A stretch of 64,000 nucleotides of DNA from Acidovorax sp. SRB_14 (GTDB lineage Bacteria > Pseudomonadota > Gammaproteobacteria > Burkholderiales > Burkholderiaceae_C): positions 62,001 to 126,000 of the forward strand of contig NZ_MWOK01000001.1 in NCBI RefSeq assembly GCF_012932145.1. Direction: 5' to 3'. The notes beneath the pieces are model-generated. The model did not search any database. It saw only the letters and a program-made list of their open reading frames with translations, and was not told where the DNA came from. The stretch's first letter is position 1; the number at the start of each line of letters is the position of its first letter. Shown piece after piece: positions 39,001 through 54,827 of the stretch. The position numbers were made by a program, and so were the translations under genes.

Positions 39001-39897
39001 GGCGCCGCGCGAGACCAGCCAACGCCAGCGGCCGTGGGTGTCGCGCAAACGGAATTCCGCACTGAAAGCGTCTTCCAGTCCCGCCCGGCTGCGCTGCAGG
39101 TCACCGGCCATGCGCCCGGCATCCTCGGGGTGGCGCAGCGCATCCCAGCGCGCGGCCTGGCCGCTGGCGCCGCCGCGGTGCACGTCGAACGCGTCATAAA
39201 AGCGGCCGTGGCAGGTGAGCGTCTGCGCTTCGACGTTCCATTCCCAGCGGCCGCCGCGGGCGGCTTCGAGAGTGAGCAGCGTCTCCTGTTCGCTGCGCTG
39301 CAGCGCGTGGTGCGCACGCTGCAGTGCCTGCACCGTCTGGGCGCGGCTGAGCACGAGTTCCACGCCGCCGCCCAGCACCAGCACGGCAGCGGCAAAGCGC
39401 CAGGGTACGCCCTCGAGCCAGGACAGCGCGCCGGCCATGGTCGTGGTGCCAGCGCCGATCTCGATGCCGGCCTGCAACGCCAGGGGCAGCGCGGCAGCCA
39501 GCGCCCCCAGGGCCAGCAGGGGGCCGTGGCGCGCGCGCAACCGGTGCGACCCGAAGGCCACCAGTGCGGTGGTCGCCAGGATCGCAAAGCCTGTCGTCCA
39601 AGTAGCGGGGTACAGCGCGCAGTGGAACAGCAGCACCGTGGCCGCGCTCGCCAGGCCCGCCACCGGACCGAACACCAGCATGGCGATGGCGGAGCCCACC
39701 GGAGGCGCAGTCACCGGGCCCATCACGCCGTGCAGCGCGGGCAGCACCATGTTGGCGGTGGTGACCAGCCCCGTCGTCAGGCCGATGGCCAGGCGGGTGC
39801 GCACGGACGCGTGCAGCAGCGCAGGGACGGGCAGCGCGCTGAGCGCCAGTGCCAACAGCGCCAGCAGCCCGATGGCCAGGGCAACGCTAAGCGCCAC
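36061..39897 (-). CDS. Membrane PAS-GGDEF-EAL cyclic-di-GMP protein
   Basis: A 1,278-residue hybrid. About 180 N-terminal residues form several membrane helices resembling the sensory integral-membrane domains of MASE/5TMR type. Four to five PAS/PAC modules follow (about 200-850), then GGDEF (RLGGDEF near residue 917, inhibitory-site RSLD five residues before) and EAL (AEALARW near 1046, with DDFGTGYSSL and EGVET). Both catalytic domains appear intact, so synthesis and hydrolysis of c-di-GMP are both possible. The start is GTG at 39897 after GGAG. The end lies in a dispersed repeat. Confidence 0.93.
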   Translation of the reverse strand: MALSVALAIGLLALLALALSALPVPALLHASVRTRLAIGLTTGLVTTANMVLPALHGVMGPVTAPPVGSAIAMLVFGPVAGLASAATVLLFHCALYPATWTTGFAILATTALVAFGSHRLRARHGPLLALGALAAALPLALQAGIEIGAGTTTMAGALSWLEGVPWRFAAAVLVLGGGVELVLSRAQTVQALQRAHHALQRSEQETLLTLEAARGGRWEWNVEAQTLTCHGRFYDAFDVHRGGASGQAARWDALRHPEDAGRMAGDLQRSRAGLEDAFSAEFRLRDTHGRWRWLVSRGAVAERDAQGRALRLIGMAIDVTDYRDLESALHTSQAKYTAVYETMPDAAGIMRVADGHYLEVNPAFCQLLGHPREQVVGRTAQQLGIWATEQEGPKLLQALQRDGKVERLPLVAQRRGVRIPGLMSAQSVHLNDEDCVAFAFRDMTEETRIHDTLLSRNSLLQQAGRLARLGAWDDVRGQGIAYWSDVCYDIHGLPSGAPLPRDYIAEYVAPAWRDALRDTVRASIRQSSDWSMEIEIVRADGRPVWVRLRGEPVVEAGRVVRIRGVILDIDESKRAEQLLRQSEERFVRIFQLLPYPMGLTRRGDGRYVDVNAAWEQALGYTRAEAIGQSAISLGIYTPEGRSALIDAVQANGRLESYEAVMTLRSGEQRTVLQSMRATEFDGEPCWLFALHDITERKRSEEQVREREELLSLTISAASLGLWDWNLQTGLVTGDSRWRAMRGMKADSEAGTPPVSWTAAMGSSDIQKITAELARHTAHPATPFDATVHITHPREGGRWVRALGKIVNTDAAGQPLRMVGVGIDVTSQREQEERLQRLAHYDALTGLPNRVLLARRLEEAMVHARSRGTLLGVAYLDLDSFKPVNDRFGHEAGDRLLVVAAARLTRALRSLDCVARLGGDEFVILLPDLADGAACERALRTVMQSIAAPYTLDTERVTVTASIGYTLYPQDDADADALLRHADHAMYAAKQAGRNRYHQFDAAHERATQQVQEQLVQLRAALADGEFTLFLQPKVDMRLGTVVGAEALARWQHPERGLLSPAAFLPLLHDSELEFAFGAWVVDAALALIRALGQAGLQLPVSINIAAPHLQQSGFADWMAQQLDRHPGVPARLLEIEITETAALYHIDSVATTLRALRELGILTSLDDFGTGYSSLTYLRRLPLSMLKIDQSFVHGMVGDAGDLAIVQGVVGLARSFGYRVIAEGVETVGQGQMLLDMGCPLAQGYAVARPMPLADFIAWAAQWQSPPEWQYHGLPEKA

Positions 39898-39971
39898 GGA
39901 CAGCGCTCCGGCCGGTGTCCCGAAAGGCGTTGCTGCCGGGTGCAGGGGGGATGGTGGGGTGGTCCAAAAGC

Positions 39972-39998
39972 AAAAAACCGCAGGCGCGCGGCCTGCGG
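39972..39998 (-). terminator. Minus-strand terminator downstream of the alkylation-repair cluster
   Basis: On the minus strand CCGCAGGC (39998-39991) and GCCTGCGG (39985-39978) form an 8-bp stem with a 5-nt loop, followed by TTTTTT and more T-rich sequence. The nearest upstream minus-strand gene is eamA, 306 bp away; the MITE-like element lies between gene and terminator. Confidence 0.82.
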
Positions 39999-40038
39999 AG
40001 AAAAATGGTAAACGGCGTAAAAACCATCGGGCGAGTGT
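39999..40038. other. Short AT-rich spacer with small hairpin
   Basis: Between terminator and mobile-like element lies ATGGT...ACCAT with A-rich flanks (40005-40028). Together with the terminator and the element it fills the 406-bp gap between the GGDEF-EAL gene and eamA, the only gene-free stretch above 300 bp in the window. Confidence 0.4.
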
Positions 40039-40304
40039 AGAACGTGTTTACGGTTTATCCGAGGCCGCGTTGGGGCGCAATCGGGATGAGTTCGCAGGCA
40101 CGTTGCGCCGCATGGGCCCATACCCATGCCAGCAGCGGGCCAAAGAAATCGCCTGATTGCGCCCCAACCCGCAGGGCAAATGCCTTTTCGGGTCTGCGGC
40201 GTTGCAGCACTTGCCCTTAGCCGGGCGATGGACTGCGCACTGCGCCTTGCATCCCCTCCCGAAAAGGCGTTTGTGCGGCCTTGGATAAACCGTAAACACG
40301 TTCT
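40039..40304. mobile_element. MITE-like element with 30-bp terminal inverted repeats
   Basis: Ends 40039-40068 and 40275-40304 are inverted repeats of 30 bp with one mismatch; the central 20 bp are perfect (core GTGTTTACGGTTTATCC). Inside are a perfect 13-bp inverted repeat (40070-40082 with 40155-40167) enclosing a 7-bp hairpin (40110-40116 with 40123-40129), plus GCCTTTTCGGG (40182-40192) with its complement (40258-40268), and AGGGCAA/TTGCCCT (40173-40179, 40211-40217). No credible reading frame is present. The outermost base forms part of the eamA stop. No target-site duplication is obvious. Confidence 0.8.
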
Positions 40305-41230
40305 TAAGGCCGTTCCAGCACCGGCTTCGCCACGGCGCGTGTCCTGATAAGTCCGGTTGACAACATGGTTCCGCAGACGATCACCAGGCCACAGCCCAGC
40401 ATCCAGGGCGTAATGGTCTCGCCCAGGAAGACCGCGCCATAGAACACTGCGAACACCGGCGCCAGGAAGGTCACGGCCAGCGCGCGGCTGGGGCCGGCGT
40501 TGGCGATCAGGCGAAAGTACAGGATGTAGGCAATGCCGGTGCACAGCACGGCGATCGCCACGATCGCGCCCCAGGCGCGGAGTCCCGGCGTCGTGGCGGG
40601 CCAGAGCCACAGCGTGGGCAGCGCCAGGCCCAGCGCGGCGCCGAGCTGGCTGCCGGTGGCCGTGGCCAGCGGGGGAATGCCGGTGAGGTAGCGCCGGGCG
40701 TAGCTCGCTGCCACGGCGTAGCAGGCCGCCGCCAGCAGGCAGGCCGCCATGGCCCACAGCGCGCTGTCCGACTTGAAGCCCGCGCCCCCGGGAGCGCGCC
40801 AGGCCAGCAGGGCCACGCCGAGGAAACCCAGGGCCAGGCCCAGCCAGCGCAGGCGGTTGATGCGGTCGCCCAGCCACACCCAGGCCACGAGCGCGCCGAA
40901 CAGCGGCACCGTGGCGTTCAGGATGGAGGTGAGCCCGGTGGTAATGTGCAACACGGCCCAGGCAAACAGCGCGAACGGAATCGCCGAGTTGATCAGCCCG
41001 GCCAGCAGGATGGCCTTCCAGTGCGCGCGCAACGCCGGCCATTGGCCCTGGTGCACCAGGATGGGCCACAGGAACACCGTGGCCAGGGCCACGCGCAGGC
41101 CGGCCGTGGGCAGCGCGCCGAACTCCGCCGCACCCAGGCGCATGAACAGAAAGGACGCGCCCCACAGAGACGAGAGCAAGACGAACTCGCCCAGCCAGGC
41201 CGACGCCGGCTTGGTGGCCGGCACGTTCAT
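40304..41230 (-). CDS. EamA/DMT-family transporter (10 TM)
   Basis: Drug/metabolite-transporter superfamily protein of 308 residues with two EamA repeats, about ten membrane helices (SSLWGASFLFMRLGA at the start of repeat 1, ACYAVAASYARRY near repeat 2). The substrate is unknown. Its ATG overlaps the ogt stop (ATGA), so it is the third gene of an ada-alkA/ogt/eamA transcript. Its stop codon TAA begins at the edge of the MITE-like element, which may have replaced the original 3' end. Confidence 0.9.
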   Translation of the reverse strand: MNVPATKPASAWLGEFVLLSSLWGASFLFMRLGAAEFGALPTAGLRVALATVFLWPILVHQGQWPALRAHWKAILLAGLINSAIPFALFAWAVLHITTGLTSILNATVPLFGALVAWVWLGDRINRLRWLGLALGFLGVALLAWRAPGGAGFKSDSALWAMAACLLAAACYAVAASYARRYLTGIPPLATATGSQLGAALGLALPTLWLWPATTPGLRAWGAIVAIAVLCTGIAYILYFRLIANAGPSRALAVTFLAPVFAVFYGAVFLGETITPWMLGCGLVIVCGTMLSTGLIRTRAVAKPVLERP

Positions 41231-41757
41231 GCTGGCACCTCGGGGGCCGAAAGGAGAGCGCCTTCGAGCCGCAGCAGGGCGCTCTTGCGCTCCAGACCCC
41301 CGGCGTAGCCGGTCAGGCTGCCGTCCTTGCCCAGCACGCGGTGGCAGGGCACGACCACGCTCAGCGGGTTGCGTCCCACGGCCGTGCCCACGGCGCGCAC
41401 GGCCGTGGGGCAACCGATCTGCGCGCCCAGCGCGGCGTAGCTGAGGGTCTGGCCGCGCGCAATGCCGAGCAGCGCGCGCCACACCGTTTGCTGGAACGGC
41501 GTGCCGCCGGCGATGTCGAGCGGCAGGTCGAACTGCGTGCGCTCGCCGCGCAAGTAGGCGTGGATTTGCTGCACCGCCGCCTGCAGCACCGGGTGCTGGT
41601 CATCCTGCGGCCAGGCCTGCGGGCCGTCGAGCTGGGCGGGAAGGTGGCGCTGGCCGTCAAACCACAGGCCGACCAGGCCCAGCGGCGAGGCAGCCAGGCG
41701 GATGTCGCCCAGCGGCGAGGGTGTGCGCGTCTGCACGGTGGATGGATGGAATTGCAT
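41227..41757 (-). CDS. ogt: Methylated-DNA--[protein]-cysteine S-methyltransferase
   Basis: Suicide repair protein of 176 residues that takes alkyl groups from O6-alkylguanine. The acceptor is Cys138 in PCHRVLGKDG; the helix-turn-helix TLSYAALGAQIG and RAVGTAVGRNP precede it. It is downstream of an Ada-AlkA fusion and supplies the O6-methylguanine activity that the fusion lacks. The end overlaps eamA by four bases. Confidence 0.96.
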   Translation of the reverse strand: MQFHPSTVQTRTPSPLGDIRLAASPLGLVGLWFDGQRHLPAQLDGPQAWPQDDQHPVLQAAVQQIHAYLRGERTQFDLPLDIAGGTPFQQTVWRALLGIARGQTLSYAALGAQIGCPTAVRAVGTAVGRNPLSVVVPCHRVLGKDGSLTGYAGGLERKSALLRLEGALLSAPEVPA

Positions 41758-53757: not shown

Positions 53758-54099
53758 TCAGTACAGCGGAACCGAGGGATCGAGCTCGCGCGACCACGCG
53801 TCGATGCCGCCGGTGATGTTGGCCACCCGGTCAAAACCGTTGTGTTCCAGAAACGCCGCCACGCGCAGGCTGCGCGCGCCGTGGTGGCACAGACAGGCGA
53901 CCGGGCGCTGCGGGTCGAGCGTGGCGAGCTGCTGGGCAATGCTGCCCATGGGAATGGCGAGGACCTCCAGGCCGGCGCAGCGCACGCTGGCGGTTTGCAG
54001 CTCCCAGGGCTCGCGCACATCGAGCAGCAGGGGCAGCGTGTCGGGCTCGGCATCGGCCAGCCAGTCTTGCAGCTGGGTCGGGCGGATATGGGCAATCAT
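53758..54099 (-). CDS. Single-domain rhodanese
   Basis: A 113-residue sulfurtransferase-type domain; catalytic Cys71 in the loop CHHGARS, with LLLDVREPWE at the front and NITGGIDAWS at the end. It resembles GlpE-like rhodaneses. It lies between pcm and tolC with short gaps, so it is likely cotranscribed. Confidence 0.93.
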   Translation of the reverse strand: MIAHIRPTQLQDWLADAEPDTLPLLLDVREPWELQTASVRCAGLEVLAIPMGSIAQQLATLDPQRPVACLCHHGARSLRVAAFLEHNGFDRVANITGGIDAWSRELDPSVPLY

Positions 54100-54113
54100 G
54101 GGTGCTGCCTGTC

Positions 54114-54827
54114 TCAGAACTTGAAGCTCGAGGGCTCGGGGAAATGCACCAGGCGCGCTGCGTTGGTGTCCCAGGGCCGCGTGGTTTCAAAGCGCTCGCC
54201 GCTGCGGCGCACGAAGGTGGCGCGCATCACGGGCTCTTGCCCGACGATCGCGGCCAGGCGGCCGCCGTCGCGCAGCAGCGCCAGCAGTTCGGGCGGCACG
54301 GCAGCCACCGAGCCGCTGAGCACGATCACGTCGAAGGGACCGTCAGGCACGGCGTCGCGCGCACCGTCGCCCAGGCGCACAGCGGCATTGGCGATGCCGG
54401 CGCGCTGCAGGTTCTCGCGTGCCATGTCGGCCAGCTCGGGCACGATTTCGAGCGATACGACCTGGTCGGCGCAGTGCGCCAGCAGCGCGGCCATGAAGCC
54501 CGAGCCAGCGCCGATCTCGAGCACGCGCTCATGTTTTTGCACCTTCAGGTCGTTCAGCAGGCGCGCCTCGACCTTGGGCGAGAGCATGCATTGGCCGCCG
54601 CGCAGCGCCTCTTCGGGTTCGCCACGCAGCGGGATTTCCATGTCCATGAAGGCCAAGCTGCGGTAGGCCGCGGGCACGAAGTCTTCGCGGCGCACATGGG
54701 CCAGCAGCGAAAGCACGTCGGCGTCGTACACATTCCAGGGCCGGATCTGCTGCTCGATCATGTTGTAGCGGGCCTGCGAGATGGGATCGTGGGGGTACAA
54801 AAACGACGAGTTCAGGGGCAAGGTCAT
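54114..54827 (-). CDS. pcm: Protein-L-isoaspartate O-methyltransferase family protein
   Basis: A 237-residue SAM methyltransferase of the PCMT family, which repairs isoaspartyl residues. RYNMIEQQIRPWNV near the N-terminus, VLEIGAGSGFMAALLA as SAM motif I, and the downstream VSLEIVPELA fit. The substrate-binding region (GGQCMLSPKVEARLL) departs from the classic SQP pattern, so activity on isoaspartate is not certain. The gene is 25 bp downstream of the RND pump and 14 bp upstream of the rhodanese. Confidence 0.85.
   Translation of the reverse strand: MTLPLNSSFLYPHDPISQARYNMIEQQIRPWNVYDADVLSLLAHVRREDFVPAAYRSLAFMDMEIPLRGEPEEALRGGQCMLSPKVEARLLNDLKVQKHERVLEIGAGSGFMAALLAHCADQVVSLEIVPELADMARENLQRAGIANAAVRLGDGARDAVPDGPFDVIVLSGSVAAVPPELLALLRDGGRLAAIVGQEPVMRATFVRRSGERFETTRPWDTNAARLVHFPEPSSFKF

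Follow-up and report, generated by a model that had tools for sequence, protein, structure and literature searches.

MITEs are usually read as a pair of ends plus leftover filler. For the IS1031 group, the passage of PMC12016507 that treats it reports a preference for TNA targets with 3-bp repeats, and gives the ends of ISLrh as GAACCTGTCTAGTATCT. Two short, gene-free elements, QMITE2 of Coxiella (PMC10969869) and MITEAba12 (PMC6382973), possess inverted ends, direct repeats and a stable fold according to the excerpts of these papers available to us. Smaller palindromic repeats have been described as well. In the part of PMC3110155 at hand, the beta-proteobacterial repeat element (BRE) of Bordetella is GC-rich, 75-91 bp long and suspected of mobility; it is multicopy in Bordetella, Polaromonas, Delftia, Acidovorax and others, and forms a tandem, variable-number repeat in Bordetella. 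The GTAG and CGTC REPs are short palindromes of 20-40 bp, often arranged as head-to-head pairs, of which the GTAG class is tied to RAYT transposases and the CGTC class is without one, as stated in an excerpt of PMC3733652.

We analysed a palindromic sequence at the 3′ end of an eamA-type transporter gene in Acidovorax sp. SRB_14 (contig NZ_MWOK01000001.1; the whole stretch of 64,000 nucleotides is referred to as the window). Judged by comparison with its relatives, the 264-bp sequence is very probably a MITE, or non-autonomous transposon, belonging to the IS5 family (IS1031 group), that entered at the TTA of the eamA stop codon; a role of its arms at the DNA level would be a less certain part of this reading. 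The family to which it belongs, F1, resembles the IS1031 group and ISLrh, as outlined in that passage of PMC12016507, in its ends (GA(A/G)CNTGT...), its 3-bp TNA duplication and an IS5-type partner of 846 bp in the same genome. Unlike the group, F1 is without a transposase, has a two-armed hairpin interior and has only the outer 13 bases in common with the partner IS. With QMITE2 and MITEAba12 it has in common the small size, the lack of genes, the inverted ends, the direct repeats and the stable fold, but in contrast to these elements as described in the excerpts, F1 has an interior preserved through compensatory change, a part of which also occurs in differently ended elements.

Table 1. Features of the element and of its insertion site, in window coordinates.
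Feature	Position	Strand	Basis
Probable MITE of IS1031 type (family F1), 264 bp	40040..40303	+	end alignment with 109 full-length copies; empty site in relatives
Left terminal inverted repeat (GAACGTGTTTACGG...)	40040..40068	+	repeat listing; ends of 109 copies
Right terminal inverted repeat	40275..40303	-	repeat listing; ends of 109 copies
Left target duplication copy, now GTA (TTA in the empty site of relatives)	40037..40039	.	
Right target duplication copy, TTA = eamA stop codon (TAA on the - strand)	40304..40306	-	
Hairpin arm A (conserved GCAATCGGGATGAG and its partner)	40070..40167	+	covarying helices 2-4; coordinates hand-converted from alignment columns
Hairpin arm B, encloses the shared core	40177..40273	+	covarying helices 6-7; inverted-repeat listing
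71-nt core common to other MITE families	40191..40261	+	model R1 match, 83.5 bits, not independent (the window copy is one of the 25 cores building R1)
eamA-type transporter gene, stop codon = target site	40304..41482	-	ORF-predicted extent; PF00892, E 1.8e-39
Terminator-like hairpin with T run, split from eamA by the element	39978..39998	-	consensus match only

The terminal inverted repeats are as the initial annotation had described them: 40039-40068 and 40275-40304 pair over 30 nt with 97% complementarity and a single mismatch. The inner inverted repeats that it had listed are also present, namely 40066-40085/40152-40171 (20 nt, 90%), 40177-40192/40258-40273 (16 nt, 94%) and a small palindrome at 40112-40121. 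The proposed extent of 266 bp was right as to the element, but its proper limits enclose 264 bp (Table 1). Similarly, the outer base 40304 does lie in the eamA stop codon, but as part of the target duplication and not of the element. Because no interleaved pair is found at 9 nt or more, the arms being nested or side by side, the suggested switch between alternative folds is not supported. The 264-nt plus strand folded as single-stranded DNA reaches z = -11.55 and the minus strand folded as RNA z = -10.13, with none of 200 shuffles equally stable in either case. There is no transposase gene. The description of the element as lacking a reading frame holds loosely: a single ORF of at least 80 aa lies wholly inside (40048-40299, minus strand, 83 aa), but it is mechanical and nothing speaks for it.

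The anatomy of the insertion site was deduced from relatives, a comparison that the initial annotation had proposed. At the eamA 3′ end the sequence AGTTTAG is uninterrupted in 10 of 22 homologous loci, which identifies TTA as the target; read on the opposite strand, it is the stop codon of eamA. One such locus (L175) reads GAGTTTAGGGCCGTTC, compared with GAGTGTA, the 264 bp and then TTAAGGCCGTTC in the window. The left duplication copy later changed from TTA to GTA, so that the duplication in the window differs by one base from the empty site. The left neighbour gene of the window, an ORF with PAS-GGDEF-EAL domains, was matched in all 10 empty-site loci, and among the listed matches most of its alignments end about 1.1 kb before the 5′ side. 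In the remaining 12 loci, mostly more distant, the motif test gave no site at the expected place. The element indeed splits eamA from a terminator-like hairpin, as had been noted, the latter being a match to the consensus. A different event was observed in another eamA homologue (L182:1892-2159, in G003), which holds an inserted element of 268 bp that has a core on each strand and differs in its ends (TAGTGTAGTG...); the sequences on either side of it match window positions 40762-40801 (30/40) and 40807-40846 (33/40).

A BLAST search with the 266 bp found a second F1 copy in the same genome (L002; 78% identity over query 68-266). Matches to the window element occur in 21 of 100 genomes, the own genome and core-only matches counted, all 21 of the same family, and in none of the 40 among the 100 that represent other families. 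The match covers at least 200 bases in 11 of the 100 genomes and is short or core-only in the remaining matching ones, with a maximum of eight matches per genome. A 22-base pattern scan of named genomes yielded at least 119 stretches; all of those listed come from Acidovorax, Paracidovorax, Comamonas, Curvibacter, Polaromonas, Simplicispira, Xenophilus, Rhodoferax and Variovorax, genera that we take to be Comamonadaceae, as well as MAGs labelled Burkholderiales or Burkholderiaceae. The initial annotation had stated beforehand that mobility would be unlikely for a sequence that is single copy and at the same place in all relatives; the element is neither, and mobility stands.

A profile built from the first copies gave 110 full-length copies among the collected loci, of which 109 were used, including the window copy; copies identical in element and left flank were merged, and some rows share an insertion site across genomes (for example L092/L094, L093/L076 and L053/L111). 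The ends in this set are mostly GA(A/G)CNTGT.... An exact 3-bp duplication flanks 59 of the 109 copies and is always TNA (TAA 22, TTA 22, TGA 11, TCA 4); an exact 4-bp duplication was seen once, and 50 copies are without an exact duplication, the window copy (GTA/TTA) among them. A C before and a G after the duplication (CTNAG) were found at 25 of the 59 exact sites versus 385 of 3849 intergenic TNA sites, a preference that is unmentioned in the IS1031 passage of PMC12016507. The position at the eamA stop is largely what this preference predicts. The duplication coincides with a stop codon in 17 of the 59 exact copies (24 of all 109) versus 445 of 3849 intergenic TNA sites, but against the CTNAG background (91/385) the excess is small (10.6 of 59 expected, simulated P = 0.024). 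Because the gene calls are our own codon-usage predictions, we do not claim stop-codon targeting as a special property of F1. Four of the 109 copies flagged as inside a gene are likewise not trusted, and an apparent in-frame capture of copy L002 by a long ORF was rejected, the frame having no Pfam or NCBIfam match and looking spurious.

Which transposase could move such an element? The same genome contains an 846-bp element (G000:C21; L158:1432-2277) with 17 identical bases, GAACGTGTTCACGATCT, at both ends and TAA on both sides. Its two overlapping ORFs match the NCBIfam IS5 transposase model NF033580 at positions 2-71 and 80-258, and PF13340 was also matched; the split of the transposase frames is either the frameshift reported for the group or a broken gene. 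The window end, GAACGTGTTTACGGTTT, agrees with the IS end in 14 of the first 17 positions, and other F1 copies carry the IS end itself. A BLAST comparison of the window element with this IS found nothing in common beyond the outer 13 bases. F1 would be moved by an IS1031-type transposase acting in trans. Of the two alternatives in the initial annotation, that of a non-autonomous mobile element is supported by the TNA duplications, the dispersed copies, the empty sites and the resident IS, whose ends are similar; IS-like terminal repeats and the absence of a transposase gene complete what is expected of a MITE of the IS1031 group.

Some further arrangements of F1 sequences were seen. F1-type ends face each other in four palindromes of 40-56 bp (G007:C13:639994-640044, G003:C17:15329-15384, G017:C55:71716-71755 and G017:C72:1126-1175). 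The right flanks of copies L084, L101, L065 and L088 directly carry the end-like sequence of another element (TGAGATCGTGAA, GAACAGG), as if F1 had inserted into or next to an older copy. Three places on the Comamonas odontotermitis plasmid NZ_CP083452.1 match the window element, the best of them (53954-54221) over its whole length with 71.5% identity, and this plasmid is a possible route of spread. A phage or plasmid origin was considered and set aside: the core-bearing locus L022 was without a match in phages and had partial matches in four plasmid records.

The interior of F1 folds into two arms, and compensatory changes have preserved their pairing over long distances. Of 43 copies differing by at least 10%, 31 were aligned, those left out having mainly larger insertions or deletions. 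Changes on both sides were found in 66 of 104 consensus pairs, amounting to 438 cells compared with a mean of 125.4 in shuffles; this consensus structure was predicted from the same alignment and so favours itself, and terminal repeats must match for the transposase anyway, but compensatory changes are also present in the inner arms (helices 2-4, 6 and 7). Sliding the partner columns by 1-3 positions lowers the paired cells from 96% to 33-43%. The ratio of one-sided to two-sided changed pairs depends on the distance between nearest copies: it is 15:3 at 1-5 differences, 98:8 at 6-12, 183:53 at 13-25, 58:50 at 26-45 and 113:151 above 45. We read the excess of one-sided changes among close copies as decay of single copies, with pairing kept in the source lineages. 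Slow template-directed correction of palindromes could be another source of compensatory changes, one that acts without selection.

Do the arms act as DNA or as RNA? The initial annotation had offered a structured RNA on the eamA transcript as the second alternative. The stems are backed by compensatory changes, as such an RNA would have them, but upkeep at the DNA level may account for these too, and beyond the stems nothing positive speaks for this alternative. Rfam searches of window 39700-40600 and of 11 loci were empty up to E = 1. RNA families are usually richer in wobble pairs. The predictions for the two strands share 93 pairs; of the 2880 cells in these, 2734 are Watson-Crick, and G-U cells number 47 on one strand and 24 on the other. 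Among copies adjoining a gene 3′ end, according to our own gene predictions, 20 have the same direction as the gene and 30 the opposite one (p = 0.20). We take the rarity of wobble pairs and the lack of a significant orientation bias to fit a role as DNA better than one in messages, although an RNA role could still be behind the uneven G-U counts of the two strands and the strand-specific loop bases of the core. At the DNA level, folded single strands or cruciforms may aid the finding or pairing of the ends; alternatively, a host factor might bind the arms. That the arms work in such a way for the element itself, and not as a signal in host messages, seems to us about as probable as not.

Seventy-two bases of arm B matched by themselves at many places, which lie inside other small palindromic elements. 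The core of this arm is a structured motif found again in differently ended small elements from many families of the class (Gammaproteobacteria in the GTDB sense, which we take to include the Betaproteobacteria). A core model, R1, was built from 25 hand-picked cores; it has only 12 pairs, so that its scores are mainly sequence. With the own genome included in every count, R1 matches 21 of 60 genomes of the family at E ≤ 1e-5 (at least 83 matches in one and 60 in another), 23 of 100 genomes drawn from the order at E ≤ 1e-6, at the same threshold 22 of 143 from the class, with nearly one per family among the matches listed, and 9 of 150 of the phylum at E ≤ 1e-7, seven of these nine in one family of another class. 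Three other genomes are rich in the core, with 75, 54 and 38 matches. A reversed decoy profile gave no hits in the collected loci compared with 231 for the real one, which speaks for specificity only, because a match to the core or the element was the reason for collecting most loci.

The flanks of these cores were then compared, skipping 13 loci whose places were already in other loci. Of the 231 cores, 212 have 240 nt on both sides, and removal of eight exact repeats left 204. Inverted repeats with at least 15 of 16 matches enclose 180 of these 204 distinct cores, versus 1 of 212 random off-core positions in the same loci; 6 of 120 random positions lay inside inverted repeats in an earlier control with a wider window. 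No such repeat surrounds the other 24 cores. Among the 180, 96 have ends fitting the F1 pattern, which missed some F1 copies, and 18 have enclosing repeats shorter than 120 bp, mostly the hairpin arm and not the end of the element. In the loci examined at least eight kinds of ends surround the core, according to a grouping by eye in which some kinds may be related to each other; those other than F1 include GGCAACGCTGAACAAGTC, GGAACCTCTGATTAA, AGGGCTCGTTAATGA, GAGCCTATCTCG, GTACTCTTTCAAG, CTAGTGGGCC, TAGTGTCCC and CCCTGCCCTTTACCC. In elements ending in GGCAACGCTGAACAAGTC the duplication differs from the TNA of F1: it is YTAR, exact over 4 bp in 5 of 16 listed copies (by eye), and YTAR duplications mark the IS5 subgroup.

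Many core-bearing elements are near 162 bp or 265-275 bp in size, with exceptions. Two oppositely oriented cores lie within one inverted repeat in 10 of 14 class-level loci and in three order-level loci; F1, in contrast, has one core and a different second arm. Outside the family, head-to-head pairs in elements of 240-276 bp were seen in L256, L259, L261, L265-L267, L270, L271, L273, L274 and L276-L278. Two core-bearing elements (L017:897-1057 and 1452-1613) lie in an array of tRNA genes, 13 of which ARAGORN found in the locus. Read from the flanks, both apparently interrupt a tRNA gene, which for one of them resembles tRNA-Arg(ACG) and is entered close to the anticodon; ARAGORN called neither of the interrupted genes in L017.

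An alignment of 61 cores, from hand-picked loci with up to two cores each, was used to examine the pairs, which were chosen by hand on that alignment. In the main stem (15-20/47-52), 304 of 366 cells are Watson-Crick, and up to four Watson-Crick pair types occur; none of 300 shuffles came up to five of the six pairs, and a single shuffle reached the remaining one. The inner hairpin has eight pairs, of which five likewise surpass every shuffle, whereas shuffles reached the other three 50, 47 and 9 times. At 12-54, 60 of 61 cores have T-G, which may be no pair. The bases GTTGC and GCGCCT next to the stem show an identity of 90% or more. CGTC is the start of some cores but not of others.

The core may be a remnant by descent with exchanged ends, a module moving between MITEs, or a sequence in selected use, and its fixed bases favour a use. 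One possible reading, somewhat less likely than not, is that the core, of about 71 nt, is a folded module which MITEs with unrelated ends carry throughout the class and in at least one further class; it would be selected independently of the transposase, for instance by recruiting a host hairpin-binding factor. We find it rather unlikely that the core is instead an RNA motif which MITEs carry into transcripts, where the folded arm would bind a protein or else protect or cut messages, and for which hosts would keep some copies. The up to four pair types in the stem with nearly invariant adjacent bases in 61 cores, the strong fold as RNA, the strand excess of G-U cells and the 65 of 109 copies that have the 3′ end of a predicted gene no more than 150 bp away (a raw count) would suit such a motif; the empty Rfam search, the orientation counts, the rarity of wobble pairs and the dominance of one-sided changes between close copies would not.

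No more credible, in our estimate, is descent of all core-bearing MITEs from one old element whose ends were changed or exchanged with new transposases, the core being a useless remnant. The recurring sizes and similar layout across families point this way, as do at least two end types with duplications of one IS family (TNA and YTAR), but in a useless leftover neither the loop bases nor the compensating stems would be expected to persist so far. Still less probable is a core that is itself a mobile unit inserting into MITE palindromes. It would explain the same core between so many kinds of ends, its presence once in some elements and twice in opposite orientation in others, and the four short palindromes made of F1-type ends alone; the recurring sizes, however, suggest an inherited layout, and deletion can also yield end-only palindromes. 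As to the palindrome at eamA, its position between the gene and a terminator-like hairpin might recall a local chance structure or an extended terminator. This we regard as practically excluded: the duplications of the family and the empty sites refute it, the copies are dispersed, the fold is far beyond shuffles, and no T run stands beside the stem of the element.

Of the published repeats, BRE is the one most likely related to the core, judging from its description in PMC3110155. The two are alike in length range, GC-richness, multicopy hosts and suspected mobility, compared by description only and from part of that paper. A comparison of copy numbers in Polaromonas sp. JS666 (L044), with 11 core matches at E ≤ 1e-4 and 29 BREs reported, was discarded because the record also carries the name of another strain. 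The core resembles the GTAG and CGTC REPs, as portrayed in the excerpt of PMC3733652, in being palindromic and often in head-to-head pairs, but differs in its length of about 71 nt and its position between long inverted ends. A description of F1 or of the core was not found in the literature searched, in which subscription journals were thinly covered, with BRE as a possible exception.

F1 adds a family to a kind of element already known, and the MITE itself is ordinary; the notable part is the folded core common to differently ended MITEs. Part of what would count as filler is here the conserved part, which keeps its fold and occurs between ends with different target duplications. With R1 as a search model, small elements can be found by the tens in single genomes of some hosts. 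A testable claim follows, namely that hairpin sequence away from the termini should matter for the movement of these elements or for their effect on the host.
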